DNA of 64,000 nt. Source: Pseudomonas putida (lineage in GTDB: Bacteria > Pseudomonadota > Gammaproteobacteria > Pseudomonadales > Pseudomonadaceae). Below are positions 1 through 29,780 of the stretch, one piece after another. The notes under the pieces are model-generated. The model was not told the DNA's origin and did not search any database. It saw only the letters and a list, made by a program, of their open reading frames with translations. Each line of letters begins with the position of its first letter. The stretch's first letter is position 1. A program made the translations under genes and the position numbers. The stretch spans positions 496,001-560,000 of the forward strand of contig NZ_CP026115.2 of the NCBI RefSeq assembly GCF_009883635.2. Direction: 5' to 3'.

Positions 1-235
1 TATTGATTTATAACGGTTTTTAAACTTTCACATGGAACTTGTAAGTTATTTTCAAACAAGCAGATATCAAGGCTTGCAATAAAAATATAAACGCCTTTAG
101 GCTGTAAAAAGACAACTAAGAAACAGCCTGCAACGCCACTTCTGAGCGCGGCTTACTTCTGCGCGTCTGCCATTTCGACAACTTCATGAACGATGTATCT
201 CGGCCGGCTTTGCCGTGCCCCAGGGAGAGGGATCT
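1..235 (+). promoter_or_regulatory. AT-rich upstream region of the alg operon
   Basis: No gene is visible here. Bases 1 to about 120 are clearly AT-rich compared with the GC-rich coding DNA that follows, as expected of a regulated promoter or a nucleoid-protein (MvaT/H-NS type) target. GGAACTT at 34-40 matches the -35 hexamer of AlgU/sigma-22 promoters, which drive algD in other pseudomonads, but no convincing -10 (TCTGA or TCAAA) lies 16-17 bases further on; the nearest TCAAA (52-56) is only 11 bases away. The same bases form the dyad AACTT-GT-AAGTT (36-47). The ribosome binding site of algD (GGGAGAGGG) ends this region. Confidence 0.4.
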
Positions 236-1543
236 ATGAACATCAGCATCTTTGGACTTGGCTATGTTGGCGCTGTCTGCGCAGGGTGCCTGTCGGCCCG
301 CGGCCACAATGTGCTGGGGGTGGATATTTCCCCGGCGAAAATCGAACTGATCAACCAGGGCAAGTCACCCATCGTCGAGCCAGGCCTGGAGCAGCTGCTA
401 CAGGACGGCGTCAGCAAGGGCCGCCTGCGCGGCACCACCGATGTGCAGGCGGCGATCCTCGCCACTGACCTGTCGCTGCTGTGCGTCGGTACTCCGAGCA
501 AGAAGAACGGCGACCTGGACCTGGTGTACATGGAAGCGGTCTGCCGGGAAATCGGCACCGCCCTGCGCGACAAGGGCAGCCGACACACAGTGGTGGTGCG
601 CAGTACCGTGCTGCCAGGCACGGTGAAGAACGTGGTGGTGCCTATCCTCGAGCAGTACTCGGGCAAACAGGCCGGCGTCGACTTCGGCGTAGCGGTCAAC
701 CCGGAATTCCTGCGCGAAAGCACCGCGATCCAGGACTACGACTTCCCGGCCATGACCGTGATCGGTGAACTGGACAGCCAGTCGGGCGACCTGCTCGCGT
801 CGCTGTACAGCGAACTCGACGCGCCGATCATCCGCAAGCCGATCGAAGTTGCCGAGATGATCAAGTACACCTGCAACGTGTGGCACGCGGCCAAGGTCAC
901 CTTCGCCAACGAGATCGGCAACATCGCCAAGGCTGCCGGCGTCGATGGCCGCGAGGTGATGGATGTGGTGTGCCAGGACCACAAGCTCAACCTGTCGCGC
1001 TACTACCTGCGCCCGGGCTTTGCCTTCGGCGGCTCGTGCCTGCCCAAGGACGTGCGCGCCCTTACCTACCGCGCCGCCAGCCTGGATGTGAAGGCGCCGC
1101 TGCTCGACTCGCTGATGGCCAGCAACGCCTCGCAGGTGCAGAACGCCTTCGACCTCATCGTGCGCCAGGACAAACGCAAGATCGCCCTGCTCGGCCTTGC
1201 CTTCAAGGCCGGCACCGACGACCTGCGCGAAAGCCCCCTGGTGGAACTGGCCGAACGCTTGATCGGCAAGGGGTACCAGCTGCACATCTTCGACGAGAAC
1301 GTCGAATACGCCCGCGTGCACGGGGCTAACAAGGAGTACATCGAAGCGAAGATCCCGCATGTGTCGTCGCTGCTGCACAGCGACCTGCAGCAGGTGATCG
1401 ATGACGCCGAAGTGATCGTCCTTGGCAACAACGACCCGCGCTTCACCGGCGCCCTGCAAGCCGGCCACGGCAAGCAGGTGATCGACCTGGTCGGCTTCAT
1501 GCCCGGCCTGAGCGACAGCCGCACCCAAGGCATCTGCTGGTAA
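236..1543 (+). CDS. algD: GDP-mannose 6-dehydrogenase AlgD
   Basis: Oxidises GDP-mannose to GDP-mannuronate in two NAD-dependent steps in the cytosol, the committed step of alginate precursor synthesis. The 435-residue protein has the usual AlgD length. It shows an N-terminal Rossmann fold (GLGYVGAVCAG, residues 8-18), the NPEFLRES segment near 155-162, and the catalytic cysteine in GGSCLPKD at residue 268, the same position as in P. aeruginosa AlgD. The start was placed at the ATG at 236 behind GGGAGAGGG; a start at 215 would add seven residues before the Rossmann strand. It is the first gene of an eleven-gene operon. By remembered comparison it is clearly AlgD and not a UDP-glucose dehydrogenase. 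Confidence 0.97.
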   Translation: MNISIFGLGYVGAVCAGCLSARGHNVLGVDISPAKIELINQGKSPIVEPGLEQLLQDGVSKGRLRGTTDVQAAILATDLSLLCVGTPSKKNGDLDLVYMEAVCREIGTALRDKGSRHTVVVRSTVLPGTVKNVVVPILEQYSGKQAGVDFGVAVNPEFLRESTAIQDYDFPAMTVIGELDSQSGDLLASLYSELDAPIIRKPIEVAEMIKYTCNVWHAAKVTFANEIGNIAKAAGVDGREVMDVVCQDHKLNLSRYYLRPGFAFGGSCLPKDVRALTYRAASLDVKAPLLDSLMASNASQVQNAFDLIVRQDKRKIALLGLAFKAGTDDLRESPLVELAERLIGKGYQLHIFDENVEYARVHGANKEYIEAKIPHVSSLLHSDLQQVIDDAEVIVLGNNDPRFTGALQAGHGKQVIDLVGFMPGLSDSRTQGICW

Positions 1544-1634
1544 CCGACCCGGCACCTACCGCGCTTCACCTGCCACAGGCTCACGCCTGGGCGGGATGGC
1601 GCGCGGGCACCGCAAAAACAGGAGTCAAGGCGAC

Positions 1635-3164
1635 ATGGATCGACAGCAACCACCCTTCGTGGCACCCGGCTACCTGCGCGCAGGCGCCAGCTTCTTCGGC
1701 TGGGCGTGCCTCGCCGGGCTGATCGCGCTGGCCTCGGAGATGGTCGCGCCGCAGTACCTGGACCCGAACCATCACCTGTTCATCTTCATCATCGGCACGC
1801 TGGGCATGTGGCGCTACGGCAACGCCATCGTCCACTACCTGCGCGGCATGTATTTCCTGCACTGGAAGTTCCCGCGCCTGCGCCGGCAAGTCGAGCGCCT
1901 GGGCGATGCCGCATTGCCCTCGCACATGTTCATGGTGGTGACCAGCTTCCGCATCCCCACCACGACCACCTTCAAGGTCTACCAGTCGGTATTCCAGGAA
2001 GTGCAACGGCTGAACGTGCCGTGCACGGTGATCGCCTCGATCGTCGAGAAAGGCGACGAGACCTTCATCAAGGAGATCATGCGCAACGAGGTCAAGGACC
2101 GTGACGACATCAAGCTGGTGATCGTTCGCGCCCGTGGCACCGGCAAGCGTGACGGCCTGGCCCATGCCTTCCGTGCGCTGTCGCGGCAGATGCCGCTGAA
2201 TGACGCAGTGGTTGGCGTGGTGGACGGCGACACCATGATGCTGCCCGGTTGTGTCGAACGTGCGGTCAAGCTGTTTGCCGTGCTGCCGGACGTGGGCGGC
2301 CTGACTACCAACGAGTTCTGCGAAGTCGAGGGCAGTCGCTGGATGCGCCAGTGGCACTCGATGCGTTTCGTCCAGCGCCACATCAACATGTGCTCGATGG
2401 CCCTGTCGCACCGGGTACTGACCCTGACCGGGCGGCTGTCGTTCTTCCGCGCCGAAGTGATGACCGACCCCGAGTTCATCCGCGACGTCGAAGCCGACTT
2501 CCTCGAACACTGGCGCCTGGGCCGCTTCCAGTTCCTCACCGGTGACGACAAGTCGAGCTGGCTGAGCCTAATGCGCGCCGGCTGGAACACCTACTACGTG
2601 CCCGACAGCCACACCCTGACCGTCGAGCACCCACCCAGCGACAGCTTCTGGATCGCCACCCGCCAGCTGATGTTCCGCTGGTATGGCAATTCGCTGCGGC
2701 AGAACTTCCGCGCCACTGCCCTGCTCGGTCGCGCCCGCCTGGGGTTGTTCACCCTGTACGTGCTGCTCGACCAGCGTGTGTCGATGTGGACCTGCCTGAT
2801 GGGGCTGACCGCCTCGGTGGTGGCCGGCCTGGTGTTCGGCATCCAGTACCTGCTGGTGTACCTGTTCTGGGTACTGATCTCGCGCAGCCTGGTGACGGTG
2901 CTGTTCGTCTTCGCCGGCCACCCGGTCAGCCCGATGTACCCCTTCGTTCTTTATTACAACCAGATCGTCGGTTCGCTGATGAAGGTCTACGCGATGTTCC
3001 ACATGGACCAGCAAAGCTGGACGCGGCAGAAGACCACCCTGGCCACTGGCAGCGTCGACTTCGACGCTCGCCTCAACCGCTGGTCCTCGAAGGCGATGCT
3101 GTGCTCGTCGATCGCCATCTTCTTCGGGGTCATCACCGTTCTTTTACAACTCTCGCAACGTTAA
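1635..3164 (+). CDS. alg8: alginate-type polymerase subunit Alg8 (family 2 glycosyltransferase)
   Basis: Inner-membrane glycosyltransferase that polymerises mannuronate from GDP-mannuronate together with Alg44. The protein has 509 residues (about 494 in P. aeruginosa). Two membrane segments lie in the first 70 residues, a cytosolic GT-A domain follows, and several hydrophobic helices sit at the C-terminus. Processive GT2 signatures are visible: D197-G-D199 for nucleotide/metal binding, G-D304-D305 as the likely base region, and the acceptor motif QLMFRW at 344-349. The start is the ATG at 1635, preceded by AGGAG; an upstream in-frame ATG at 1596 lacks a good site. It lies 91 bases after algD and 16 bases before alg44. 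Confidence 0.95.
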   Translation: MDRQQPPFVAPGYLRAGASFFGWACLAGLIALASEMVAPQYLDPNHHLFIFIIGTLGMWRYGNAIVHYLRGMYFLHWKFPRLRRQVERLGDAALPSHMFMVVTSFRIPTTTTFKVYQSVFQEVQRLNVPCTVIASIVEKGDETFIKEIMRNEVKDRDDIKLVIVRARGTGKRDGLAHAFRALSRQMPLNDAVVGVVDGDTMMLPGCVERAVKLFAVLPDVGGLTTNEFCEVEGSRWMRQWHSMRFVQRHINMCSMALSHRVLTLTGRLSFFRAEVMTDPEFIRDVEADFLEHWRLGRFQFLTGDDKSSWLSLMRAGWNTYYVPDSHTLTVEHPPSDSFWIATRQLMFRWYGNSLRQNFRATALLGRARLGLFTLYVLLDQRVSMWTCLMGLTASVVAGLVFGIQYLLVYLFWVLISRSLVTVLFVFAGHPVSPMYPFVLYYNQIVGSLMKVYAMFHMDQQSWTRQKTTLATGSVDFDARLNRWSSKAMLCSSIAIFFGVITVLLQLSQR

Positions 3165-3180
3165 GGAAAGGCGCCTGCAC

Positions 3181-4344
3181 ATGAGTACCACGAACATTCC
3201 CGCGGCCCCGGGCAAGACAGCGGCCAACATCGTCCACGAAGCGGTCGACGAGCGCCAGTACGTGCGCACCCGCATGAACGCACGGGTGCGCCTGGCCAGT
3301 GCCGGCCATGCCCCGTTCGAAGTGGCCCTGCAGGACATCTCCTTGGGTGGCCTGGGCCTGACCCATGACGCGCCGCTGAAAGTCGGCACGCTGTACGACG
3401 CCTCGATCCGCCTGCGCCTGAACCAGGTGGACCTGAACATCGACAGCAAGATCCGCATCGTCTCCCAGCGTGGCAGCGAAGTCGGCGCACAGTTCGTGGA
3501 GCTCGATGCGCAAAAGCGCGACATCCTGCGCTACCTGATCAGCGCCTACATGTCCGGCGAAATCGCTGACATCAATGGCCTGTTCAATGTCATGCAGCGT
3601 GAGAACTACATCAAGGAACGCAAGCACAAGTACGCCAGCGCACGCACCCCGGGCGCTCGCCTCAAGGCCTTGACCGGCACCTTGCTGTACACCGCCGCCG
3701 GCATCGCCGCGCTGGCCTTCGTCGGCTACAAGGGTTACCTGCTGTTCTTCCGCATCCCGGCGCTGCAGGCCCAGGTGGCGACCAACGCCCAGGTGATCAG
3801 CATGCCCGACAACGGCTATGTGAAGTACCTGCTGCCCGCCGGCACCACCGACGTGAAGGCCGGCCAGCCGCTGGCCAGCATCTCCACGCAGCTGGCCACC
3901 AGCTTCACCAGCCCGGCCGACATGAAGGCGGTTGCCGACCTGTCGCCTGGCGACCTGCAGACCCTGCTCGGCCGCGCCACCATCGAAACGGTGATCAACA
4001 GCCCGTGCGACTGCACGGTCTACTACCCGAGCCAGCGCCTTGACGGTTACGGCTACAAGGAAGCACCGCTGATGCACCTGCTGCCCAAGGACCAGGGCCT
4101 GTTCGTGCGCGCCAACGTGCCGTTCGACAAGCTCGCCGATGTCGACCGGGTGAAGTCGGTGGACATGCAGGTGTTCGGCCTCGACCAGCACTACAGCGGC
4201 AAAGTGGTCGACGCACGCGTCGACGAGGTCAACCGCAACCTGGCGCTGACCATCCAGCCCGACAGCCCGCTGCCGGCCGCGGCCTACCAGAAAGCGGTGG
4301 CGGTCGACCTGTTCATGGGCCTGCCGTTCGGCGCAGCGCACTAA
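3181..4344 (+). CDS. alg44: c-di-GMP-binding polymerisation protein Alg44
   Basis: Co-polymerase of Alg8; c-di-GMP binding to its PilZ domain switches polymerisation on in the known system. The 387-residue protein (389 in P. aeruginosa) begins with a PilZ domain carrying RQYVR (R25, R29) and DISLGG (D52, S54, G56, G57), so the c-di-GMP signature is intact. A single membrane segment follows at about residues 160-185. The C-terminal periplasmic part resembles a membrane-fusion (HlyD-like) protein. AAGGAAAGG precedes the ATG. The intact PilZ motif suggests the locus is still under second-messenger control. Confidence 0.95.
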   Translation: MSTTNIPAAPGKTAANIVHEAVDERQYVRTRMNARVRLASAGHAPFEVALQDISLGGLGLTHDAPLKVGTLYDASIRLRLNQVDLNIDSKIRIVSQRGSEVGAQFVELDAQKRDILRYLISAYMSGEIADINGLFNVMQRENYIKERKHKYASARTPGARLKALTGTLLYTAAGIAALAFVGYKGYLLFFRIPALQAQVATNAQVISMPDNGYVKYLLPAGTTDVKAGQPLASISTQLATSFTSPADMKAVADLSPGDLQTLLGRATIETVINSPCDCTVYYPSQRLDGYGYKEAPLMHLLPKDQGLFVRANVPFDKLADVDRVKSVDMQVFGLDQHYSGKVVDARVDEVNRNLALTIQPDSPLPAAAYQKAVAVDLFMGLPFGAAH

Positions 4345-4365
4345 ACGGCCGAGGACGATGACGCC

Positions 4366-5817
4366 ATGACCGCCAATATGCCTCCCCGCCTGCTGCTGGC
4401 CGGCCTGGCCCTGGCCTGTGCCACCACAGCCAGTGCCGGGCAGAGCCTGGAACAGATCCGCTACGCGCTGTACAAGGACCCGTCGGCCGAGGTCACCACC
4501 GACCTGCGCGAACTGGCTGCCCGTGGCGACCTGGCCAGTACCCTGCTGCTTGGCGATGTGCTGGCCGGCCGCGAAGACGCCAGCCGCGCGGAAGTGGTGG
4601 CGCTGTACCAGAAGGCGTTTGCCGACGGCCATGGCATGGTCCCGGCACTGGCTTCGCTAGCCCGCCTGATCGACCGCACCCCGAGCCTGCGCGAGGCGCA
4701 GCGCCCGTGGATGGCGCAGGCACTGACGCGCTACCCGGCCAACCTCGACCCGCGCAACACCAGCACCACGCTGGAAGTGTTCCTGACCTACCCGGAGCTG
4801 GTCGACAGCGCCCAGGCGGCCCAACTGCTGGCGCTGTACGAGCAGGCCTGCCTGCTCAACTGCCGCCCGGAGCTGTATCACGCCGTGCTCGCCGAGCGCC
4901 AGGGCGACCGCGCCAGCGCCGAGCGCTGGTACCGCCAGGCGGTGCGCGTGGACGTGCGCGCCCTGGACCGCTACTACGCCTTCCTCGGCGAGCAGCAGGA
5001 CCGCCTGTTCCCGCCCTTCGCCGACCAGCTCGAACCTGAGCGCGAGCAGCTGCCGGTGGAGATCATTCACCGCGTCGCCGCGCTGCTCGACAGCATCACC
5101 AGCGTGCAGCGCGCCGAACAGGAAGCCGACCGCTACGAGAACCAGGCCAGCACGCCCGGCGCCGAGAAGCTGCCACCCACCCCGGAACAGCTGGCCCGCG
5201 AAAAAGCCCGGAGCGATGCGCTGAACCTGGCCACCGCCCGGGTCCAGCGCTGGCGCGATGTGGCTGTGGCTCGCGGCTTCGTGCCGGCCATGGTGTCCAA
5301 GGCCAACTATATGATCTCCAACCCCACCGAGCACAACGCCGAGGAAACCCAGGCGCTGATCGACCAGGTGCGCGAACGCGAGCCGACCCGGGCCAAGGCC
5401 CTGCAGGCGCAGTTCTACATGGTCAACAACTGGCTGACCCTGGACCCGGACAAGGCCCGCGCACTGATCGAGGAGCTGCGTGCCAGCGGCTACCCCGGTG
5501 CCGGCCTGCTGCTGGGCGAGTACTACAGCAAGGGCGTCGAGGACCAGCCCGACCAGGAGAAGGCCCTGGCGCTGTTCAAGGCCGAAGCCGACAAGGGCAA
5601 CACCGCCGCCTGGTACCGCATGGCCACCCTGCACGCCTACGGCCGTGCCCTGTGCCACGACCCGGTCAAGGCCTACACCTACGCCCGCGTCGCCCTCGAC
5701 CTGGGTGAACGCAGCGCGCGCAGCCTGATCAAGCGCCTGGAAAAGACCCTGCCAAAGGATGACATCGAGCGTGCCCTGGCCGCTCGCAACGGGCTGTTCA
5801 AGGAGGCCACCCTGTGA
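4366..5817 (+). CDS. algK: alginate export scaffold AlgK (Sel1/TPR repeats)
   Basis: Periplasmic TPR-like scaffold that connects the polymerase to the outer-membrane porin AlgE; in P. aeruginosa it is a lipoprotein. The 483-residue protein is helical and repeat-rich, with Sel1-type segments at the C-terminus (for example GLLLGEYYSKGVEDQPDQEK near residue 380). The N-terminus is a signal peptide, but the only cysteine context is LALAC (residues 14-18), a poor lipobox with Ala at -3, and a type I cleavage site (TASA then G25) lies just after it. Lipidation is therefore uncertain. The stop codon overlaps the GTG start of algE (GTGA), so the two are translationally coupled. Confidence 0.88.
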   Translation: MTANMPPRLLLAGLALACATTASAGQSLEQIRYALYKDPSAEVTTDLRELAARGDLASTLLLGDVLAGREDASRAEVVALYQKAFADGHGMVPALASLARLIDRTPSLREAQRPWMAQALTRYPANLDPRNTSTTLEVFLTYPELVDSAQAAQLLALYEQACLLNCRPELYHAVLAERQGDRASAERWYRQAVRVDVRALDRYYAFLGEQQDRLFPPFADQLEPEREQLPVEIIHRVAALLDSITSVQRAEQEADRYENQASTPGAEKLPPTPEQLAREKARSDALNLATARVQRWRDVAVARGFVPAMVSKANYMISNPTEHNAEETQALIDQVREREPTRAKALQAQFYMVNNWLTLDPDKARALIEELRASGYPGAGLLLGEYYSKGVEDQPDQEKALALFKAEADKGNTAAWYRMATLHAYGRALCHDPVKAYTYARVALDLGERSARSLIKRLEKTLPKDDIERALAARNGLFKEATL

Positions 5818-7268
5818 AAGCGCATCACCCCCTGTTCGGCGCCCTGCTGGCCCTGGCACCGCTGCCAGCGGCCTTCGCCGCAGAAGAAATCACCGGCCCC
5901 GAAGCCGACAGCAACGAACCGGTGCGTGTCGCCGCGCTGGATGGCAGCGAGCCGGTCATCACCTCGGAAGTGTTCAACAAGCTCACCGTGCAGACCGGCT
6001 ACGGCCCCGAAGACTCCCAGGTCGGCAGCGACCGCGAGATGTTCTACAGCCTGCGTTACGAGCCATCGTTCGCCTGGTACTCGCCGGAAAAGCGCTGGGC
6101 CAAATGGATGGTCTATGGCCGCCTGTGGTTGAACTACGACTCCAGCCAGTCAAGCAACCTGACCAACGAAGCGTCCAACGCCAACGAACGCGAGCAGCCC
6201 GAAGGCTGGTACGCCGAACTGCGCGAGCTGTACGTCAAGCGCAACCTGATCGGTGACGACCCACGCTTCTCTGCCTCGTTTGGCCGCCAGCGCTTCTATG
6301 ACGACTACGGCATCTGGTGGGACGACAGCCTCGAATCGCTGCGTTTCAATTACCAGGACACCTTCAGCGAGGCGTTCTTCGCCGTCGGCCAGAAGTTCCA
6401 CAACTACAACACCGACGTCAACCGCCTGGCCGACAGCGAAGAGCGCACCACCTACCTGATGGGCCAGTACGCCTACCGCTGGAGCCAGAACAACCAGGTC
6501 GGTGTGCGCCTGATGCACGAAAACGACCACAGCGGCCACGACGCCGACGACCGCTACGACTTCAAGGGCATGCGCTACGGGCTGTTCTTCAAAGGCGACA
6601 ACCTCGCCTACCCGGTGCTCAGCGACTACCACCTGGAACTGGCGGCGCTGGACGGCAAGATGGACAACACCGACGGCAACGGCGTCACCACCACCGGCCA
6701 CAGCAGCAAGGGCTGGGCGGTGCTGGGCGAAGTCGGCAAGCGCTTCGACTACCTGGCGTGGACCCCGCGCGTGGCGCTGCGCGGCGGCCTGACTGACAAG
6801 CCCGGCGACGAGAACGACGGCTTCCGCCTGAACGCCATCCAGTCCGACCGCATCACCCGCACCGGCTCGTACAGCACCCGCCTGACCAGCTCGTTCGTCG
6901 CCCTCGACCTGCGCAACCTGAGCTACTACGGCTTTGCCGTGGAGACCCGCCCCACCCCGCGCAGCGCGCTGGACCTGCGGGTGACCCAGCTCGACCTGCG
7001 CGATGCCGACGGCACCCTGCCGATCCGCATGAACGGCGACCAACGTTCGGAGCGCAACCGCGCCATCACCCAGGGCACCAACGGCAACGGTCGCAATGTC
7101 GGGCAGATGATCGACCTCAACTACTACTGGAAGATGTTTCCGGTGGCTATCGATGGCAAGCACCTGGACGTCAACGCGCTGGTCAGCGCCAGTTACCTCA
7201 ATGCCGGCAGTGCATTGGAAACCGGCGATGACTACCAGCTGAGCGTCGGCGTGGTGATCAGTTACTAA
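5814..7268 (+). CDS. algE: alginate export outer-membrane porin AlgE
   Basis: Outer-membrane beta-barrel through which the polymer leaves the cell. The 484-residue protein (490 in P. aeruginosa) has a clear signal peptide ending PAAFA-A (about residue 23). Alternating aromatic strands run throughout, and the C-terminus ends in a strand-like segment (YQLSVGVVISY) with a terminal aromatic residue, typical of BAM substrates. It starts with GTG at 5814, overlapping the algK stop by four bases. In canonical alg operons algG follows algE; here algI follows after only 14 bases, which marks the point of gene-order change. Confidence 0.93.
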   Translation: MKAHHPLFGALLALAPLPAAFAAEEITGPEADSNEPVRVAALDGSEPVITSEVFNKLTVQTGYGPEDSQVGSDREMFYSLRYEPSFAWYSPEKRWAKWMVYGRLWLNYDSSQSSNLTNEASNANEREQPEGWYAELRELYVKRNLIGDDPRFSASFGRQRFYDDYGIWWDDSLESLRFNYQDTFSEAFFAVGQKFHNYNTDVNRLADSEERTTYLMGQYAYRWSQNNQVGVRLMHENDHSGHDADDRYDFKGMRYGLFFKGDNLAYPVLSDYHLELAALDGKMDNTDGNGVTTTGHSSKGWAVLGEVGKRFDYLAWTPRVALRGGLTDKPGDENDGFRLNAIQSDRITRTGSYSTRLTSSFVALDLRNLSYYGFAVETRPTPRSALDLRVTQLDLRDADGTLPIRMNGDQRSERNRAITQGTNGNGRNVGQMIDLNYYWKMFPVAIDGKHLDVNALVSASYLNAGSALETGDDYQLSVGVVISY

Positions 7269-7282
7269 GGAAGGACCCTGCC

Positions 7283-8710
7283 ATGATCTTCGCCTCCAAT
7301 GTGTTCCTGTTCCTCTACCTGCCGCTGTTCCTGGCCGTGTATTTCCTGGCCAGGGCGCAGTGGCGCTCCACGGTGATCGTGGCGGCCAGTTACATCTTCT
7401 ACGCCTGGTGGCGGCCGGACTTCCTGCTGCTGTTCGTCGGCATCACCTACTGGAACTACTGGTTCGGCCTGCGCATCAAGGCACGCCTGGATGCCGGCGA
7501 CAAGCGCCTGGCCCTGCGCCTGCTGTGGATCGGCATCGCCGGCAACCTGTCGACCCTGGGTTACTTCAAGTACGCCAACTTCGGCGCCGAGGTGCTGGCC
7601 ATGCTGCTGGCGCCGCTGGGCATCAATACCTGGACGCTGGAGAACATCTTCCTGCCGCTGGGCATTTCGTTCTACGTGTTCCATGCCCTGAGCTACATCG
7701 TCGACATCTACCGCAAGGACGCCACGCCAACGCGCAACTTCATCGACTTCGCCGCCTTCGTCGCGCTGTTCCCGCACCTGGTGGCCGGGCCGATCCTGCG
7801 CTACAGCCAGCTGGCGCCGCAGCTGCGCGAACGCACCCATTCGCTGGAGCTGTTCTCGCTGGGCGTGTGCCGCTTCATGCTCGGCTTCATCATGAAAGTG
7901 CTGATCGCCGACCGCCTGGCGCCGATCAACGTGCTGTTCGTCAGCGAAGGCACCCTGCAGTTCAGCGACGCCTGGTTCGGCCTGGTGATCTCGACCCTGC
8001 AGCTGTACTTCGACTTTGCCGGCTACAGCCACATGGCCCTGGGCCTGGCGCTGATGATGGGCTTCCGCTTCCCGGAAAACTTCAACCAGCCCTATGTCTC
8101 GCAGAGCATCACCGAGTTCTGGGCACGCTGGCACATGACCCTGGCGCACTTCCTGCGCGACTACGTGTACATGCCACTGGTGCGCAAGCGCGTGGCCGGT
8201 GCCCTGCCGGCGCTGATCTGGACCATGCTGCTGTCGGGCCTCTGGCACGGGGCGAGCTTCGCCTTCATCTGCTGGGGCCTGTTCTTCGGCGTGGGCATGG
8301 TGATCGAGCGCAAGTTCAACCTGGCGACCAAAGTCACCACGCCCTACCACCTGGGCCGCAACCTGCGCACCGGGGCACTGATCCTGCTGAGCATGCCGCT
8401 GTTCTTCACCATGGACCTGCGCCACAGCATCGACATCTACCAGGCGCTGTTCGGCCTCAACGGCTTCGGCTCGCTGGAACTGTACGTACTCGGCGCCTCG
8501 AAGATGGCCATGGCCTTTGCCCTGGTGGCGCTGGCCTGGCTGGTATTGGCCGGGATCAACAACGTGCGTTTCTACGCCGGCAACAAGGACGGCTACTTCA
8601 TGCGCCATGTCGGCGCGCTGCACAGCGTGCTGCTGTGGGGCGGCTTCCTGCTGGCGCTGAGCAGCCTGGCGGCCAACTCGTTTTCGCCCTTCCTGTATTT
8701 CCAGTTCTAG
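7283..8710 (+). CDS. algI: alginate O-acetyltransferase AlgI (MBOAT)
   Basis: Multi-pass inner-membrane MBOAT protein that carries acetyl groups across the membrane for O-acetylation of the polymer. The MBOAT catalytic histidine is H322 in SGLWHGASF, the same number as in P. aeruginosa AlgI. The conserved stretch FNQPYVSQSITEFWARWH lies at 267-284. At 475 residues the protein is about 45 shorter than P. aeruginosa AlgI (520), with the difference at the C-terminus. AAGGAAGGA precedes the ATG. It is followed by algJ after nine bases. Confidence 0.93.
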   Translation: MIFASNVFLFLYLPLFLAVYFLARAQWRSTVIVAASYIFYAWWRPDFLLLFVGITYWNYWFGLRIKARLDAGDKRLALRLLWIGIAGNLSTLGYFKYANFGAEVLAMLLAPLGINTWTLENIFLPLGISFYVFHALSYIVDIYRKDATPTRNFIDFAAFVALFPHLVAGPILRYSQLAPQLRERTHSLELFSLGVCRFMLGFIMKVLIADRLAPINVLFVSEGTLQFSDAWFGLVISTLQLYFDFAGYSHMALGLALMMGFRFPENFNQPYVSQSITEFWARWHMTLAHFLRDYVYMPLVRKRVAGALPALIWTMLLSGLWHGASFAFICWGLFFGVGMVIERKFNLATKVTTPYHLGRNLRTGALILLSMPLFFTMDLRHSIDIYQALFGLNGFGSLELYVLGASKMAMAFALVALAWLVLAGINNVRFYAGNKDGYFMRHVGALHSVLLWGGFLLALSSLAANSFSPFLYFQF

Positions 8711-8719
8711 GAGACGGCC

Positions 8720-9814
8720 ATGTACCCGGTGATGAATTCGGCCAGCAAGGCCAATGGCATTCTGTTCGTGGTGGTGCTGGCGGCGATGTTCGTCTATTCG
8801 CTGCCACCCGTGTTCAGCTTTGCCCGTACCTCGACCGATACCTGGAACCTGTTCGTCGACGGCAAGCTGTTGCGCAAGTTCGAGCAGGCCTACGACAAGC
8901 GCTTCTTCCTGCGTGACCCGTCGGTTGAGCTATGGGCCGATGCCCAGTTCCACCTGTTCGGCGAAGGTACCAAGGGTGTGGTGCTGGGCAAGGACGGCTG
9001 GCTCTACACCAACCAGGAATACCGCGTGCCCAACGACCTTGAGGCCAACGTGGCGAGCCAGCTGGAGCAGATCGCCAAGGTCCGCACGCAGTTGGCCGAG
9101 CACGGCAAGCAACTGGTGATCCTGCCGTTGCCGATGAAGCTGGACGTGTACGCAACCCATGCCCAGCATGCCTTCGACCCACGGGTGACCAGCCTTTACG
9201 ACCACTTCGTCGGCGAGTTGCAAAACCGCCAGCTGGACGTGGTGCCGCTGCGCGGGGCCTTCCTCGCCAACCTCGACGGCCCGCAACTGTTCCTCAAGTC
9301 CGACACCCACTGGAGCCCGGAAGGCGCGCGGCTGTCGGCCTACGAACTGGCGCGCCAGCGCCCGCAGCTGCTGGGTGACCAGGTGTACGTGTCGCGCAAG
9401 GCCGGCGAGAAGAGCGTCAAGGGCGACCTGATGAACTACATCCAGTTTGACCATGCGCGCCTGGCGCCACAGTTCGGCCCCAACCCGATTGCCCTGTACG
9501 AAACCCTGAAGGCCACGCAAGGCGTCGACGACCTGTTCGCCGAGGAAAACCAGAGCTTGCTGCTGGTCGGCACCAGCTACAGCAAGATCGACGACTGGAA
9601 CTTCGTCGGCTTCCTCAAGGAGGCACTCAACCGCGACCTGCTGAGCATCGCCGTGGAGGCCCGTGGCCCGTTCGAGGCGATGAGCCAGTTCCTGGCCAGC
9701 GACCAGCTGGCCAACCCGCAGATAGATACCGTGGTCTGGGAATTCCCCCTGCGCACCCTGCTCGCCCACCGCCCCGGCTCGCTCAGCCGCAGCGCTGCGC
9801 CCCAGCATTTCTGA
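8720..9814 (+). CDS. algJ: alginate O-acetyltransferase AlgJ (SGNH-like)
   Basis: Membrane-anchored periplasmic acetyltransferase of the AlgJ/AlgX SGNH family, acting with AlgI and AlgF. One N-terminal membrane anchor lies at about residues 13-30. The DxHW block SDTHW gives D195 and H197, and GTSYS gives the likely nucleophile S286, so the catalytic triad looks complete. The 364-residue length is a little below the 391 of P. aeruginosa. The ATG sits behind AGGAGACGG. The gene is tightly spaced between algI and algF, as in the canonical order. Confidence 0.92.
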   Translation: MYPVMNSASKANGILFVVVLAAMFVYSLPPVFSFARTSTDTWNLFVDGKLLRKFEQAYDKRFFLRDPSVELWADAQFHLFGEGTKGVVLGKDGWLYTNQEYRVPNDLEANVASQLEQIAKVRTQLAEHGKQLVILPLPMKLDVYATHAQHAFDPRVTSLYDHFVGELQNRQLDVVPLRGAFLANLDGPQLFLKSDTHWSPEGARLSAYELARQRPQLLGDQVYVSRKAGEKSVKGDLMNYIQFDHARLAPQFGPNPIALYETLKATQGVDDLFAEENQSLLLVGTSYSKIDDWNFVGFLKEALNRDLLSIAVEARGPFEAMSQFLASDQLANPQIDTVVWEFPLRTLLAHRPGSLSRSAAPQHF

Positions 9815-9832
9815 CGCTTCAAGGAGAGCCTG

Positions 9833-10462
9833 ATGAAACTTACCCAACTGTTCACCGCCATCGCCCTGGCCGCTGCCAGCCATGCCGCCTTGGCCGCCGA
9901 AGGCAACGCCGACCTGTACGATGCCGTGGCCCCGGCCGACTCGGCGTTCGTCCGCGTGCTGAACCTGTCCGACAGCAACATAGACGTGACCCTCAGCGGC
10001 AAGGTCAACCCGCAGCGGGTTGCCGCCGGTCAGCTCAGCGGCTACCGCTTCACCCCTGCCGGCCCGCACAAGATTGCCGTCGGCGGCAAGTCGATCGAGC
10101 CGCAGCTCAAGGCCAATGCCGCCAGCACCGTGGTCTACGACGGCAAGCAGCTGAAACTGATCAGCGACAAGTACGTCAACGAGCCGAAAAAGGCGCAGAT
10201 CGCCTTCTACAACCTGAGCGCCAACCAGGCCACGCTGAAGACCTCCGATGGCAAGCACGATGTGGTCGAGGCCATTGGCAACGGCGAGACCGGCACGCGC
10301 ATGGTCAACGAGATCAAGATCGACTTCGCCGCCTACCAGCAGGACACCAAGGTCGCCAGCTTCGACGAGCAGTTCCTCAAGAAGGGCCGCTCGTACAGCT
10401 ACGTGCTGCTGCCGGGCAACCGCAGCATGACCCTGGCCAACAGCATCGACCCGACCGAATGA
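9833..10462 (+). CDS. algF: alginate O-acetylation protein AlgF
   Basis: Small periplasmic protein required for O-acetylation with AlgI and AlgJ, thought to pass acetyl groups or hold the complex together. The 209 residues (216 in P. aeruginosa) begin with a signal peptide (cleavage near ALAA-E). The mature part begins ADLYDAVAPADSAFVRVLN, a segment typical of AlgF, followed by beta-rich sequence with paired domains. AAGGAG lies upstream of the ATG. In canonical operons algA follows AlgF; here algX follows after 27 bases and no algA is present in the window. Confidence 0.9.
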   Translation: MKLTQLFTAIALAAASHAALAAEGNADLYDAVAPADSAFVRVLNLSDSNIDVTLSGKVNPQRVAAGQLSGYRFTPAGPHKIAVGGKSIEPQLKANAASTVVYDGKQLKLISDKYVNEPKKAQIAFYNLSANQATLKTSDGKHDVVEAIGNGETGTRMVNEIKIDFAAYQQDTKVASFDEQFLKKGRSYSYVLLPGNRSMTLANSIDPTE

Positions 10463-10489
10463 CGAATGCCCTGCAAGGATGAATGGCAC

Positions 10490-11902
10490 ATGAAGACCCT
10501 TGTACCTTTTGGCCTGAGCGCTGCCCTGGCCTTGCTCAGCCTGCCGGCCCTGGCCGCGCAGCCGGCCCCGGCTGCCCAGGTGGCCGGGCCTGGCTGCGAG
10601 AACCTGCAGTGCATGGTCTGCCCGGCCTTGAGCGACCCGCAACGCTATGCCGAAGGGCGCATGAAACTGATGCGCGAGATCGTGCCTGGCAAGGACCGCT
10701 GGCTGTTCCGCTCGGCCGTCGACCTGACCAATGACTTCGGCATCCCCGCGCCGATGCGCCCGGAGTTCGCCCGCCTGATGCAGGCGTTCGAGCGCCAGGG
10801 CATCCATGTGGCCATGGCGATCCAGCCGACTCGCGGGCTGATGCACCGCGACAAGCTGTTCGCCGACCAGCTGCATGGTTTCGACTACGCCCGCGCCAGC
10901 AACAGCCTCAGTGCCTACCTCGGCCAGTTGCGCCAGGGCGGCGCGGTGGTGGCGCCGATGATGCAGCTGGTGCAGCAGCCGCCGAAAGGCGAGTACTTCT
11001 TCCGCCGCGACCACCACTGGACGCCCACTGGCGCCGAGGCCACGGCGAAACTGATCGCCGAAGAGATCCGCCGCCAGCCGTTCTATGCCGGGCTGACCAA
11101 GAAGGCGTACCGCACCGAGCCGGGCGTGATGGTGCCCAAGGACGGCACCATGAACCTGGCGATGAGCAGCATCTGTGGCAACAACTATGGTTTCCAGTAT
11201 GTGCGTGGCTACCAGACCATCCCCGTGGCTGCAGGCGCCGACGCGCTGTTCGACGAGGCACCGGACCCGGAAGTGATCCTGGTCGGCGACAGTAACGCCG
11301 CGGCCCGTGAGGACGAGAGCAAGCAGTTCAACTTCGATGGCTACCTGAAGCAGTACCTGAACGTCGACATCCTCAACTACGCCCTGCCTGGGGTCGGCGA
11401 GGATGGCTCGCTGCTGGAGTACCTGTTGTCCAGCGACTACAAGCCCAAGGCGCCGCCCAAGCTGATCGTCTGGGAGCTGCCGGCCAACTACCGGCTCGAC
11501 TCGCCGCTGATGTATCGCCAATTGGTGCCGGCGGTTCAGGGTGGTTGCTCGGCAAGCCAGGAAGTGCTCGGCGCGAAATTGCAGCGCCCGGCGTTGCAGG
11601 TGGGTGAGCGCATCGAGCTGCTGAGCAATGCCGGCAGTGGTCGCCAGGCACTGTCGAAGGGGTTTCTCGACATTCGCCTGAGCGACAAGAACGTCAAGGA
11701 CTTCTACATCATCGTCTATTACGACAACGGTGCGCGGGACAAGGTGTGGTTCCGCCGCGAAGCGGCGGTGACCGGTGGGCAGTATTACCTGGAGCTGAGC
11801 AAGGCACCGGAGTTTGCCGGGGCCAATTTGCTGTCGGTGTTCATGGAGCCCACCAAGGCCGGTACTGTGGCGACCGATGTGGAGACCCGGCTATGCCTGT
11901 GA
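10490..11902 (+). CDS. algX: alginate biosynthesis protein AlgX (O-acetyltransferase/export)
   Basis: Periplasmic protein with an SGNH acetyltransferase domain and a C-terminal carbohydrate-binding domain; it acetylates mannuronate and is part of the export scaffold. Counted from the ATG at 10490 the protein has 470 residues (474 in P. aeruginosa). The acetyltransferase residues fall where expected: D174 and H176 in RDHHW, and S268 in VGDSNAA (S269 in P. aeruginosa). A signal peptide covers about residues 1-23. An upstream in-frame start at 10466 would precede the signal peptide by eight residues and is less likely. Its TGA overlaps the start of algL. X, L and G here follow F instead of preceding I. 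Confidence 0.92.
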   Translation: MKTLVPFGLSAALALLSLPALAAQPAPAAQVAGPGCENLQCMVCPALSDPQRYAEGRMKLMREIVPGKDRWLFRSAVDLTNDFGIPAPMRPEFARLMQAFERQGIHVAMAIQPTRGLMHRDKLFADQLHGFDYARASNSLSAYLGQLRQGGAVVAPMMQLVQQPPKGEYFFRRDHHWTPTGAEATAKLIAEEIRRQPFYAGLTKKAYRTEPGVMVPKDGTMNLAMSSICGNNYGFQYVRGYQTIPVAAGADALFDEAPDPEVILVGDSNAAAREDESKQFNFDGYLKQYLNVDILNYALPGVGEDGSLLEYLLSSDYKPKAPPKLIVWELPANYRLDSPLMYRQLVPAVQGGCSASQEVLGAKLQRPALQVGERIELLSNAGSGRQALSKGFLDIRLSDKNVKDFYIIVYYDNGARDKVWFRREAAVTGGQYYLELSKAPEFAGANLLSVFMEPTKAGTVATDVETRLCL

Positions 11903-13071
11903 TACCGCTGTTCAGGGCTGATGCGGTCGGTGTGGGAGCTGGCTTGCCGGCGATGGGCCGCAAAGCGGCCCCAATCCTGCTAACCCTATTTTTGATAAGC
12001 CCACTGACACAGGCGGCACAGTCTATCTGGCCCGCCCACAGCACCCCGCAGTCGGCCATGATCGCCGACTACCGCACCTTGTCCTGCACCAAGGAACCGC
12101 CAGCGCCCTACACCGGCAGCCTGCACCTTGAAAGCAAGTACGACCAGCGCGACGCCAGCAAATCGACCCTGCGCAGCAGCCCCGACGCCAACAGCGAGCA
12201 GATCACCAAGCAGGTCAAGCAGTTCGTCGGTGGCCTGATCTACGCCAGCAAACGCTTCCAGCAGGCGAAGAAACCCCAGGACGCCAACATGGCCCTGGCC
12301 TGCCAGGACCAATGGCTGCAACACTGGGCCGAAGCCGGCGCCCTGCTCAACCCGGATGCCAGCGGCACCGGCATGGCCGCGCGCAAATGGGCGTTGGCGG
12401 CCATGGCCGGCGCCGTGCTGCTGACCCAGTCGGCCGCCGACGGCAAGCTGCAGCTGAACGAAACGCAACGCAGCTGGTTCACCCGCCTCGGCGAGCTGGT
12501 GATCCGCGAGTACGACCCACGCCGCAGCGCCCGCGGTGTGTATTTCAACAACCACGACTACTGGGCGGCCTGGGCCGTGGCCGCCGCCGGCATGCTGGTC
12601 GGCCGCGACGACTTCATCCAGTGGGCCGACGGCAACCTGCGTCGTGCCCTGGCCCAGGCCGTGCGCGCCAGCAACGGCAACTATGCCTACCTCCCGCTGG
12701 AAGTAGCACGCAGCAAGCTGGCGGCCAACTACAGCCAGTACGCGTTGGTGCCGCTGGTGCTGCTGGCCGAATCGGCACGCGCCAATGGCCTGCCGTGGAG
12801 CAACGAAGACCAGCAGACCCTCGACTTGCTGGCCAACTTCGCTGCCCGCACCGTGCTCGACCCCGGCGACCTGCCCGAACTCAAGGGCCAGTCCCAGGCG
12901 GACGTGGCACCGTACAAGCTGGCCTGGCTGATCCCGTTCCTGCAGCGCAACCCCGGCCACGCGCTGGCGCGCCAGCTGTACGACAGCGAAGACGGCGAGG
13001 TGGACAACTACAGCCAGCTCGGCGGCCCGATCAAAGCGTTCTACCCCCCACTGCCCGGATCAAGGAGCTGA
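11893..13071 (+). CDS. algL: alginate lyase-like protein AlgL with REP-derived leader
   Basis: Periplasmic PL5-type lyase that in known systems degrades polymer left in the periplasm. The ATG at 11893 overlaps the algX stop and has GGAG eight bases upstream, so coupling favours this start (392 residues). But the true signal peptide (MGRKAAPILLTLFLIS, residues 21-36) begins at a second ATG at 11953, which would give 372 residues, close to the usual 367. The first 20 codons and the n-region are REP-element DNA. K82 in SKY, N219-N220-H221 in NNHDYW and Y283 are kept. The arginine I recall seven residues before that tyrosine in the canonical enzyme is Leu276 here, so activity is doubtful. Confidence 0.82.
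   Translation: MPVIPLFRADAVGVGAGLPAMGRKAAPILLTLFLISPLTQAAQSIWPAHSTPQSAMIADYRTLSCTKEPPAPYTGSLHLESKYDQRDASKSTLRSSPDANSEQITKQVKQFVGGLIYASKRFQQAKKPQDANMALACQDQWLQHWAEAGALLNPDASGTGMAARKWALAAMAGAVLLTQSAADGKLQLNETQRSWFTRLGELVIREYDPRRSARGVYFNNHDYWAAWAVAAAGMLVGRDDFIQWADGNLRRALAQAVRASNGNYAYLPLEVARSKLAANYSQYALVPLVLLAESARANGLPWSNEDQQTLDLLANFAARTVLDPGDLPELKGQSQADVAPYKLAWLIPFLQRNPGHALARQLYDSEDGEVDNYSQLGGPIKAFYPPLPGSRS
11931..11972 (+). repeat. REP half-element inside the 5' end of algL
   Basis: The segment TGTGGGAGCTGGCTTGCCGG followed by a stem GGGCCGC-AAA-GCGGCCC (11955-11971) is a typical Pseudomonas REP sequence. It lies inside the predicted reading frame of algL, between the coupled start at 11893 and the hydrophobic core of the signal peptide. 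The stem begins at the last base of the alternative ATG at 11953 and would hinder initiation there. Confidence 0.75.
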
Positions 13072-13074
13072 CCC

Positions 13075-14529
13075 ATGGCTGCCCTCGCCCGCTTTTCCCT
13101 CACCTGCCTGGCCGCCTTGTGCCTGGCAGGCGCTGCCCAGGCCGCCAGTCAATCGCTGCCACTCAACCAGACCGTGGACACCCTACCCCGCGAGCAACGC
13201 CAGCTCAAGGTCGAGCAGCTGCGCCAGCAGGTGCGCCAGGCCGTGGCCTTCCAACAGGCCGAACGGCAACGCCCGGCCGGGCGAGCCAGTGTCAGTCTGC
13301 AACCGATGTTCTCGTCCCAGGCCGGCAGCTGGCCGTTCGAGCCGTTCGTCAACAACGGCCTGTTCCGCGCCATCGCCGGCTACCAGGCACACCACCCGCA
13401 GGTGGTGATGCTGCGCGGTGGCAGCATCACCCTGGCGCAGTTGCACGACGCACTGAACGACCCGCGCATCCTCAAGCGCTACAAGGATGGCTACCTGCTC
13501 AGCTACCCGCTGATGATCGGCAGCGACGCCGGGCTGGTACTCGAAGGCACCAGCCTGTATCTGTCGAGCTTCTCTGGCACGGCGCTGATCAACCAGGGCT
13601 GGCTCGGGCTCAACCAGTCCAGCCTGGAGAGCATGGCCGGCGACAAGCCCGGCAGCACCGACCGTGCCTGGCGGCCATTCGTGGTGGCCTGGGCGGGCAG
13701 CCATACCCAGGTGATCGGCTCGACGCTCAAGCGCCTGGGCTACAACGCCAACCTCTCGCGTGGATTGACCACAGCGTTGAGCACCCAGCAAGCCGCCAGC
13801 ACGCGCCCGGCCACAGTGATCATCCGCGACAGTCAGTTCAGCGAGATGTCCAGCGCGGTGGAGCTGCAGCACAGCCAGGCGACCATTACCGGCAGCCAGT
13901 TCGAGCAGTCGCAGCAATACGCCATCGATGCGCAGAACAGCCAGGTCAAGCTGCAGGGCAACCAGCTGCGCGGCATCGACAACAACAGCGGCGTGCGCCT
14001 GCGTGGCCAGACCCGCGCCCTGGTCGAAGGCAACCTGATCCTCGGCGCGACCAAGGCCGCCATCGAAGTCAGCGAGCAACAGGGCGCGGTGCTACTGGCC
14101 GGCAACCGTATCGGCGACAGCCGTGGCAACGGCATCCAGCTGCGCAACCTGGCCCCCACTGCAACGGCACCGCTGGTGATCGACGACAACCTGCTGGCCA
14201 GCAGCCAGGGCAGCGCGGTGGATGCCAGCGAAGTGGGCGCCGTGGCGCTGCTCGACAACCACATCGGCAACACGGCGGAATATGCCATCAGCCTGCGCAA
14301 CGCCACGCCACTGGCCGGCCCTCTGGTGCTCAGCGGCAACCGCCTGGGCCGGGTCGGCAAGGCGCTGGTGCGGGTCGAAGGTATGCGGGATGTGCTGCTG
14401 GGGGGCAACAGCTTCGATGGCAAGCCGTTGTTGCAGAACCTGTTGATCGGGGATTTGTTGCCCTTGCAGGGGCAGTTGCTCGAGGCCACGGTTCGCCAGG
14501 GTGAGACTGTGCGGGTGAGGCAGCAGTGA
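13075..14529 (+). CDS. algG: AlgG-like mannuronan epimerase homologue lacking the DPHD motif
   Basis: In known systems AlgG is a periplasmic right-handed beta-helix C5-epimerase that converts mannuronate to guluronate and is also a structural part of the export complex. This 484-residue protein (about 540 in P. aeruginosa) has a signal peptide (residues 1-23), an AlgG-like N-terminal region (VMLRGGSITL at 111-120, RPFVVAWAGS at 200-209) and beta-helix (CASH) repeats at about 245-430. Where canonical AlgG reads YGIDPHD, this protein reads YAIDAQN (282-288), so Pro, His and the second Asp are gone. It is probably a scaffold only, or an enzyme of altered chemistry. It is last in the operon, four bases after algL. 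Confidence 0.8.
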   Translation: MAALARFSLTCLAALCLAGAAQAASQSLPLNQTVDTLPREQRQLKVEQLRQQVRQAVAFQQAERQRPAGRASVSLQPMFSSQAGSWPFEPFVNNGLFRAIAGYQAHHPQVVMLRGGSITLAQLHDALNDPRILKRYKDGYLLSYPLMIGSDAGLVLEGTSLYLSSFSGTALINQGWLGLNQSSLESMAGDKPGSTDRAWRPFVVAWAGSHTQVIGSTLKRLGYNANLSRGLTTALSTQQAASTRPATVIIRDSQFSEMSSAVELQHSQATITGSQFEQSQQYAIDAQNSQVKLQGNQLRGIDNNSGVRLRGQTRALVEGNLILGATKAAIEVSEQQGAVLLAGNRIGDSRGNGIQLRNLAPTATAPLVIDDNLLASSQGSAVDASEVGAVALLDNHIGNTAEYAISLRNATPLAGPLVLSGNRLGRVGKALVRVEGMRDVLLGGNSFDGKPLLQNLLIGDLLPLQGQLLEATVRQGETVRVRQQ

Positions 14530-14550
14530 TTCATTCCTTGCACTGACTTC

Positions 14551-14633
14551 ACCGGCCTCTTCGCGGGGCAAGCCCGCTCCTACAGGAATGCGCAGGACCT
14601 GTAGGAGCGGGCTTGCCCCGCGAAGAGGCCGGT
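14551..14633. repeat. REPIN (paired inverted REP elements)
   Basis: Two inverted REP copies, ACCGGCCTCTTCGCGGGGCA and its complement, face each other around a short centre (AATGCGCAGGA). The whole 83-bp unit can fold into one long hairpin. It lies between the convergent 3' ends of algG and the GNAT gene and probably also ends transcription of both. Related copies occur at 25351-25431 and 63497-63582. Confidence 0.9.
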
Positions 14634-14638
14634 GCAGG

Positions 14639-15070
14639 TCACCCAATGACCCGCTGCATTCTCACAAAGCAATCATCCTCCCCCATCTCGACAAACCCAT
14701 GGCGCAGGTACAGTTGCCGCGCCGGGTTGCTCTTGAACACCATCAACCTCAACAGCGGCAGGCGCCGCTGCGCCGCCCATTCGGCCAGCGTCTCAAGCAC
14801 CTGGCTGCCCACTCCTCGCCCACGCTGCTCCGGCATCAGGTGCAATTCACGAATGAATAACGCCTGTCGGTCCTGGCTGAGGCTGCAGAAACCCAACACC
14901 TCTTCCCCTTCCACCACCAGCCACTGCTCGCGCCAGCCCCAGGCTTCGTCAAAGGCCTCCTCGATCCACAACAGGTCGAACTCGCGGTAGTAGGGCAGCA
15001 TCGCCCGTCGCGTCAGGTCCCGGGCAAAGGTGAGCCAGGCATCGCTCGCGGCGATCAGCTCAATGGGCAT
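14639..15070 (-). CDS. GNAT family N-acetyltransferase
   Basis: Predicted acetyl-CoA-dependent N-acetyltransferase of unknown substrate. The 143-residue protein carries the GNAT acetyl-CoA loop in EQRGRGVGSQVL (about residues 87-98) and the C-terminal NPARQLYLRHGF signature of the fold. The ATG at 15070 was chosen because upstream codons belong to the overlapping neighbour and are not GNAT-like. It overlaps the 3' end of the DUF488 gene by 11 bases, so the two are probably co-transcribed. The role is unknown; peptide, small-molecule or antibiotic substrates are all possible. Confidence 0.85.
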   Translation of the reverse strand: MPIELIAASDAWLTFARDLTRRAMLPYYREFDLLWIEEAFDEAWGWREQWLVVEGEEVLGFCSLSQDRQALFIRELHLMPEQRGRGVGSQVLETLAEWAAQRRLPLLRLMVFKSNPARQLYLRHGFVEMGEDDCFVRMQRVIG

Positions 15071-15446
15071 AGCACACCGGCGAGCTGCCTGGGCCGCGCC
15101 GCTCCAGTTCGTCTTCCAGCCAAGCTGCCAGCACCTGGGCGTTGTTGTGCTCGGTGTCCTTGCCGGCATACAGCAAGGTCAGGTTGCCTTTGGCCGCAAG
15201 GTCCAACAGCGGATACCAGTGCTCCGGGTGCGCCGCCAGTTCCTGCTGATAGCGCTGGGTGAACCCGGCGAAATCCACCTCGCCCTGGTGGAACGCCTTG
15301 CGCAAATCAGTGGATGGCGCCACGTTGCGTAGCCACTCGCCATGCAGTTGGTCCTTGCGTTTATTGCGCGGCCACAGGCGGTCGACCAGCACGCGCTGGC
15401 CATCTTCCTTCTCTGGCGCGTCATAGACGCGCTTGCAGCGAATCAT
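15060..15446 (-). CDS. DUF488 family protein (YeaO-like)
   Basis: Small cytosolic protein of unknown function. The 128 residues include the family-typical stretches GQRVLVDRLWPRNKRKD (about 16-32), a central helix-rich region and LTLLYAGKD near residue 90, matching the DUF488/YeaO pattern. No catalytic role is established for the family. It is first in a two-gene unit with the overlapping GNAT gene and is divergent from the phosphate carrier gene, with a 121-bp shared upstream region. Confidence 0.8.
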   Translation of the reverse strand: MIRCKRVYDAPEKEDGQRVLVDRLWPRNKRKDQLHGEWLRNVAPSTDLRKAFHQGEVDFAGFTQRYQQELAAHPEHWYPLLDLAAKGNLTLLYAGKDTEHNNAQVLAAWLEDELERRGPGSSPVCYAH

Positions 15447-15567
15447 GGGGTTCTCCTGCTTTTACCGTCTGTCTTGAGACTAGGTAATTCATTGACCGAG
15501 GTCACGTCCAGGCGAGGAATTGTTTCTATCCTCAGAACCACCCTCGCCGACGCCAATCGGAGCCCCC

Positions 15568-27840: not shown

Positions 27841-28293
27841 ACTGACCGCCAGGTCGCACTAGACCAAAGATGTAGTAAGTATAAAAAAGCACTACAAAAC
27901 CGTTGACAGGGTCTTTTTCCCAAAGGCATGATGGCCTCGCTCCCGCTAATCAGGGGCCCTGGCAAGGGCCTTCGAGGCGTACTCCTCCCACCCTTGGAGG
28001 CACCTCGTGTCTATACGGCCCACAAGGCGGTTCGACGGGATTGCGACTGCAACGAAGAAGTTGTCCCGAGGGACGGAAGCGCATCACCGCAGTTCTGGCA
28101 ATCGCGTAGCACCGCAGCAAGGCAACCACGAGCCGACCTGCCGGAGCACACCTGCGCCTGGCCTGCACCTCCTTCCCCTTCGAGCCTTCGCGTTCGCCGC
28201 CGCACTCCCCCGGACAGGACAGCCGCCAGGTCCCTGATCGGCCCCGAGCATCAGCACAATTAACCCAAGATCGATGCGACGAGGTTTATTTCC
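27841..28293 (+). promoter_or_regulatory. promoter and long structured leader of aceA
   Basis: 453 bases with no convincing gene. TTGACA at 27903 followed at 18 bases by CATGAT gives a candidate sigma-70 promoter, so the transcript leader would be about 350 bases. The leader is rich in nested stems: GGCCCT...AGGGCC near 27955-27970, CCTCC...GGAGG inside GAGG...CCTC at about 27974-28012, and GTCC-CGAG-GGAC near 28063-28074. GAGG precedes the aceA ATG by nine bases. A 111-codon open frame (27928-28263) crosses the region but has no ribosome site and no recognisable protein. It could be a regulatory 5' UTR or a separate small RNA. Confidence 0.5.
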
Positions 28294-29619: not shown

Positions 29620-29636
29620 TAGTGGGTTGCTGACCG

Positions 29637-29721: not shown

Positions 29722-29780
29722 CTGAAGCAATTCCCTGGATCAGGGCTATGCTTGTGGCAGCCCAGCAGCAAGGACCGCCC

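Follow-up and report, generated by a model that had tools for sequence, protein, structure and literature searches.

The window, a stretch of 64,000 nucleotides of Pseudomonas putida DNA (C1:496001-560000), encodes a second alginate-type cluster that is distinct from the canonical alginate operon and coexists with it in the same genome. We consider it likely that this cluster is an orthologue of the epm locus of Pseudomonas alkylphenolica and a separately regulated machine for O-acetylated mannuronan beside the canonical operon. Both the identity of the polymer and the regulation of the cluster are inferred from sequence.

Gene content and conserved residues

Eleven co-directional ORFs occupy positions 236-14529 in the order D-8-44-K-E-I-J-F-X-L-G, and neighbours either overlap slightly or lie no more than 52 bases apart (Table 1). 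All eleven frames are open, and algA is not among them. Profile searches recovered a sugar dehydrogenase, a GT2 glycosyltransferase, a PilZ domain, an AlgK-like C-terminus, an MBOAT protein, AlgF, a PL5 lyase and a beta-helix, as well as an ALGX domain in two proteins, one of which carries a CBM. The D, L, AlgE and AlgG proteins were also placed by comparison with solved structures. These comparisons bear out the gene identities, the order and the missing algA that an earlier note on this DNA had described. The same note read X-L-G as a reversed G-X-L block; X and L keep their usual order and G has shifted to the end. The algX-like frame may start at the second Met (10490) instead of 10466, and the algL-like frame has candidate ATGs at 11893 (overlapping algX) and 11953.

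Table 1. Features of the alginate-type cluster, in positions of the window; cluster proteins are marked with a prime in the text.
Feature	Position	Strand	Evidence
Cluster leader	1..235	+	Blocks conserved in close relatives (upstream-region alignment)
algD-like GDP-mannose 6-dehydrogenase (GMD)	236..1543	+	Score against P. aeruginosa GMD; C268
alg8-like GT2 mannuronan synthase	1596..3164, start tentative	+	GT2 Pfam
alg44-like PilZ co-polymerase	3181..4344	+	PilZ Pfam
algK-like periplasmic repeat protein	4366..5817	+	Weak NCBIfam AlgK match, residues 301-470, below cut-off
algE-like outer-membrane porin	5814..7268	+	1.2e-15 to AlgE 4afk
algI-like MBOAT acetyl transporter	7283..8710	+	MBOAT Pfam; H322
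algJ-like SGNH O-acetyltransferase	8720..9814	+	ALGX Pfam; D195, H197, S286
algF-like acetylation protein	9833..10462	+	AlgF Pfam, 1.1e-39
algX-like SGNH O-acetyltransferase, C-terminal CBM	10466..11902	+	ALGX and CBM_26 Pfam
algL-like PL5 polysaccharide lyase	11893..13071	+	NF001469, 421.9 bits (cut-off 366)
algG-like right-handed beta-helix, probable pseudo-epimerase, DPHD motif gone	13075..14529	+	

AlgD' is closest to the P. aeruginosa GMD (1mfz, 750 bits); the best UDP-glucose dehydrogenase reaches 256.5 bits, and assignment to that class is ruled out by score. C268 is present in 42/42 rows. The DGD and DDK residues of Alg8' match those of canonical Alg8 in 44 ungapped rows, with N at D210 in two further rows. 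Constant in the rows counted are D52, S54 and G57 of the Alg44' PilZ domain (48/48), H322 of AlgI' and the D195, H197 and S286 of AlgJ' (49/49 each), and D182, H184 and S276 of AlgX' (48/48 ungapped rows; one row is gapped). We take these to be the catalytic or ligand residues of their families. The earlier note was right that AlgD, AlgI, AlgX and Alg44 keep them; its AlgX numbering (D174/H176/S268) fits the second-Met start and becomes 182/184/276 when counted from 10466. The cluster remnant L084/L159 was excluded from the residue counts.

AlgL' aligns with AlgL 4ozv at 8.3e-38 and keeps the equivalents of K66, N201, H202, W205, R249, Y256 and Y259 in all 47 loci. Active-site roles for K66, H202, W205, R249, Y256 and Y259 are given in excerpts of PMC8829089. 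Inactivation of AlgL', as the earlier note had supposed, is ruled out by the retained Arg equivalent and other active-site residues. As a description of the locus, the note stands for the layout and for the loss in AlgG discussed below, and falls for AlgL inactivation and the X-L-G reversal. By eye, one canonical AlgK N-terminus has an evident lipobox, whereas none of eight cluster N-termini has a standard one (n = 9); this hint that AlgK' lacks a standard lipobox is weak because four of the eight retain a Cys after the hydrophobic stretch.

A separate lineage beside the canonical operon

A second Alg8, 54% identical to that of the cluster, lies at 3.57 Mb of the 6.19 Mb single-contig genome, within a complete canonical operon D-8-44-K-E-G-X-L-I-J-F-A (L006). 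The genome encodes three GMP-PMI (algA-type) genes, one of them the canonical algA, and GDP-mannose therefore need not come from the cluster. This genome-wide search for another algD-alg8 pair and for algA agrees with the suggestions of a second, diverged alg locus and of GDP-mannose supplied from elsewhere. Identity between cluster and own canonical proteins is 80% for D, 54% for 8, 45% for I, 36% for J, 32% for E and F, 29% for 44 and X, 28% for L, 26% for K and 24% for G; the E and K alignments cover only a part of each protein.

In the Alg8 tree, 49 cluster rows are separated from 20 canonical rows by one branch with 100/100 support and a length of about 2.3 changes per site, so the cluster forms its own clade. 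The AlgD tree is shallower: 42/44 cluster AlgDs form one group, and those of L079 and L080 fall within the canonical clade (L070, L078, L081, L082 and L083, with no D in the fetched stretch, are not in the tree). The deep Alg8 split together with the shallow AlgD tree leads us to view the cluster as machinery that separated long ago and uses a shared precursor enzyme that can be exchanged. All eleven genes have dN/dS values of 0.091-0.199. The word "rearranged", used in the earlier note, is misleading because the cluster represents an old, distinct clade whose own gene order is conserved. That note's interpretation is otherwise supported in part, for the second locus, the source of GDP-mannose and an acetylated mannuronate product, and fails for "rearranged" and for AlgL.

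The window AlgG query matches 47/398 same-genus genomes below 1e-100 among the matches listed. Next listed are fragments in G357 (1.7e-25), followed by weaker matches from 1.9e-18 on, which are canonical AlgG where examined (own genome, L085, L086). At class level only the own genome of 369 matches at 1e-20, again among the matches listed; at order level four of 293 genomes match at 1e-60, two of which belong to other genera. Exactly D-8-44-K-E-I-J-F-X-L-G without algA is found in 27/47 loci (window included), and 15/47 carry algA between D and 8. Four more start at 8, the fetched stretch containing neither D nor A, and one is cut by a contig end. Of the four genomes with loci starting at 8, two hold an isolated D-A pair at another site; in the other two, a canonical-type operon contains the only AlgD detected. 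The cluster order is, by these counts, its own. Among the loci sampled, neither the sub-lineage of the window nor the four loci starting at 8 have algA; since 15/47 loci have it, its absence, correctly noted here, is a trait of some lineages only.

A canonical Alg8 (at least 75% identical to the own canonical one) also occurs in 43/47 genomes, with one stop inside the matched stretch in four of them (G065, G218, G133, G202). A survey for the E-I-J-F-X-L-G order found it in all 26 other fetched close-group genomes, an agreement that makes misassembly or a one-off rearrangement unlikely. A scan of named genomes gave 71 loci, 66 with a complete 44-K-E-I-J-F-X-L-G. Named carriers include P. mosselii, P. 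soli, P. donghuensis, P. taiwanensis, P. otitidis, P. citronellolis, P. alcaliphila, P. alcaligenes and two P. alkylphenolica, and outside the genus Marinobacterium, Gilvimarinus and Shewanella.

Several loci have unusual layouts. L085 (G320) and L086 (G266) hold tandem canonical operons or parts of them (...L-I-J-F-A, then D-8-44-K-E-G-X). In G357 (L084/L159), AlgG' fragments are the sole cluster remains found in the fetched stretch, and that genome has two canonical-type Alg8 genes. P. mangrovi contigs (L151, L156) suggest two cluster copies, with X-L-G directly followed by D-A-8-44-K on one. In Pseudomonas sp. Irchel s3f7 (L145), the cluster G is followed downstream by algA and algD on the opposite strand. 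Three canonical-clade operons (L204, L205, L209) show a third arrangement, D-8-44-K-E-G-X-I-J-F-L-A.

The leader contains sigma70-like hexamers, TTGCAA at 74-79 and TAGGCT at 98-103, found by eye; an automated sigma70 scan of 1-15600 gave no match. In the close group, an AlgU-type box, the pattern of which we take to be the consensus, occurs in 0/28 cluster leaders versus 13/13 canonical leaders, where it lies 393-470 bases upstream of algD. Outside the close group the contrast is weak (3/7 canonical, 1/12 cluster leaders). The box is not universal in canonical leaders (16/20 in one set, 8/19 in an overlapping set), and the pattern arises in 42/2000 shuffled cluster leaders. Four of 44 cluster leaders (L055, L071, L076, L077) were too short and were dropped from the count. 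Alignment of the upstream regions of relatives tied no regulator to the conserved leader blocks. Most likely, the cluster is regulated separately from the canonical operon.

Upstream of window base 1 (L007 12195-15710), pgsA, uvrC and gacA, named by reading their translations, and a small XRE-type regulator gene adjoin the cluster. Within the close group the cluster occupies a fixed site, with gacA upstream in 25/26 fetched loci, the remaining one ending at a contig end, and a phosphate-transporter gene lies downstream in 23/26. Neither gene was found beside the cluster in 20 loci of other lineages. An Rfam match to SrbA (sRNA regulator of biofilms) at 27949-28175 (+), roughly 13 kb downstream, scores 85.1 bits (cut-off 69), and its end overlaps a minus-strand ORF at 28084-29730.

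AlgG' and the predicted product

The AlgG' of the window reads DAQN where the canonical motif is DPHD, which confirms the reported loss of the catalytic motif. Counted with one row per genome, the motif is intact in 0/47 AlgG' versus 21/21 canonical rows; Pro is lost in 47/47 and His in 43/47. In the larger sets (119 and 120 family rows, 21 canonical), which include genomes seen twice, the His site holds R, Q, G, S, A or others in 111/119 rows. The beta-helix fold is kept, as are the first Asp of the motif (47/47) and its Tyr (46/47), an Arg lies near the neutralising position in 84/119 rows, and family-specific residues such as E263 (Glu263) and R229 are invariant. The mean dN/dS of AlgG', 0.128, is within the range of the cluster. 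The His survives as D-L-H-(D/G) in 4/47, all deep family members (L079, L080, L082, L083), perhaps an intermediate state.

Excerpts of PMC4444821 state that the AlgG His probably abstracts the proton and that strains lacking AlgG yield oligomers in place of polymer, hence a structural role for AlgG. AlgG' is a probable pseudo-epimerase; since its catalytic base is gone, it would serve as a scaffold or guide for the polymer instead of epimerising it at C5. The loss of this key residue makes a plain acetylated polymannuronate the probable product. No account of the AlgG' motif loss was found in excerpts of PMC7716237, PMC4444821, PMC5851621, PMC5890197, PMC8745256, PMC8829089, PMC9734138, PMC7564387 and PMC5953339, a set to which the main epm paper does not belong. 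PF13229 matches in the own genome are canonical AlgG, AlgG' and one other 498-aa frame. A search of this genome for a secreted AlgE/PsmE-type epimerase with PF12708 gave no match at 1e-3 (the profile matches in 6/14 control genomes), and other epimerases may exist. If co-expressed, canonical AlgG might epimerise the chain made by the cluster.

In the proposed pathway, GDP-mannose would be drawn from a shared pool fed by the three GMP-PMI genes elsewhere. AlgD', given its close match to P. aeruginosa GMD, presumably oxidises it to GDP-mannuronate, which Alg8' and Alg44', with their residues kept, could polymerise under c-di-GMP control. AlgI'-J'-F'-X' may O-acetylate the polymer, as the residues kept in I, J and X suggest, while AlgK'-E'-X'-G' would form the periplasmic conduit and AlgL' could clear chains straying into the periplasm. 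The predicted product is an O-acetylated poly-beta-D-mannuronate, nearly or wholly free of guluronate, that may serve as a biofilm scaffold. The class of AlgD' and the retained acetylation residues support the acetylated mannuronate polymer put forward in the earlier note.

AlgG' might instead have rebuilt its active site and still act as an epimerase or modify the polymer in another way, making the polymer a genuine but slightly different alginate. The retained Tyr and first Asp, the frequent Arg, the invariant E263 and R229 and the four D-L-H sequences fit this idea, and because of the kept Asp, Tyr, Arg and Glu263 a changed chemistry is possible. We nevertheless regard a working epimerase as unlikely, given that the proton-abstracting His (excerpts of PMC4444821) is replaced in nearly all family rows by no single conserved substitute.

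The remaining alternatives concern the whole locus. Most periplasmic and outer-membrane parts are about 24-36% identical to their canonical counterparts, and algA is absent in this lineage, as might be expected if the cluster made another acidic polymer not based on mannuronate, such as glucuronan. This is very improbable in view of the AlgD' score, the algA inside 15/47 loci, the canonical-clade AlgD of L079 and L080, and an AlgL' that keeps mannuronate-lyase residues and matches alginate lyases. We find it scarcely credible that the locus is a silent or decaying copy of the alginate operon that makes nothing distinct: the lost AlgG' motif, the AlgG' fragments that are all that was found in G357 and one relative with Alg8 in two pieces (L062, G076) point that way, but all 11 frames of the window are open, dN/dS is 0.09-0.20 for every gene, and the cluster recurs in 47/398 genomes (matches listed) in fixed order with a deep Alg8 split. 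Our preferred reading remains a separate O-acetylated mannuronan machine.

Significance and relation to known systems

Mannuronan of defined composition is useful in biotechnology. Chances seem even that about one eighth of the sampled Pseudomonas carry a dedicated natural pathway for guluronate-free O-acetylated mannuronan with a pseudo-enzyme AlgG in its conduit, uncoupled from AlgU, the switch governing ordinary alginate. AlgG' would have been kept for structure after loss of its base, with the conduit built around it. According to excerpts of a 2015 review, no natural mannuronan-producing organism had been identified, and every bacterium that produces alginate carries AlgG and releases some guluronate (PMC4444821). 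The motif-less AlgG cluster in 47/398 genomes (matches listed) offers many candidates for such producers and a test of whether the structural and catalytic roles of AlgG are separable. Annotating "alginate" from single genes (algD, alg8) can mix up two different polymers. The alginate-like epm kind of cluster is already known, if little studied; to this we add how the cluster is distributed, which relatives carry algA, the finding that AlgL is intact, a probable AlgG pseudo-enzyme and a leader unlike the canonical one.

The cluster shares 11/12 homologues with the canonical Pseudomonas alginate operon, together with the type of precursor enzyme and the kept acetylation and lyase residues. It departs from the order D-8-44-K-E-G-X-L-I-J-F-A; the canonical operon, unlike the cluster, has algA, an intact AlgG DPHD, an AlgK lipobox evident by eye and, in the close group, an AlgU-type box upstream of algD. 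The Pap cluster of P. fluorescens F113 is likewise a second acidic polysaccharide locus beside alginate genes, but its authors predict a Wzy-like pathway with UDP-sugar enzymes, and alg8/44/K/E homologues are not among the genes described in excerpts of PMC7716237. We rejected Pap as a match.

Among the closest known systems is the epm cluster of P. alkylphenolica (Lee et al. 2014, Appl Microbiol Biotechnol 98:4137). Excerpts of PMC5890197 name it as responsible for an alginate-like EPS, and the title of a 2014 genome paper claims poly-beta-D-mannuronates from P. alkylphenolia. Both P. alkylphenolica genomes in our sample, PSB00016 and xwS2 (L190, L191), have the same 11-gene order without algA. 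The epm study reportedly described 11 ORFs and a "substituted polymannuronic acid" as the product, with epmG and epmJ needed for (aerial) structures, and is said to mention relatives in Alcanivorax and Marinobacter. Gene content in PSB00016 and xwS2, the strains compared (KL28 is not included), is without difference from that of the window, each protein is 71-92% identical, and each genome has two AlgD copies, as does the genome of the window.
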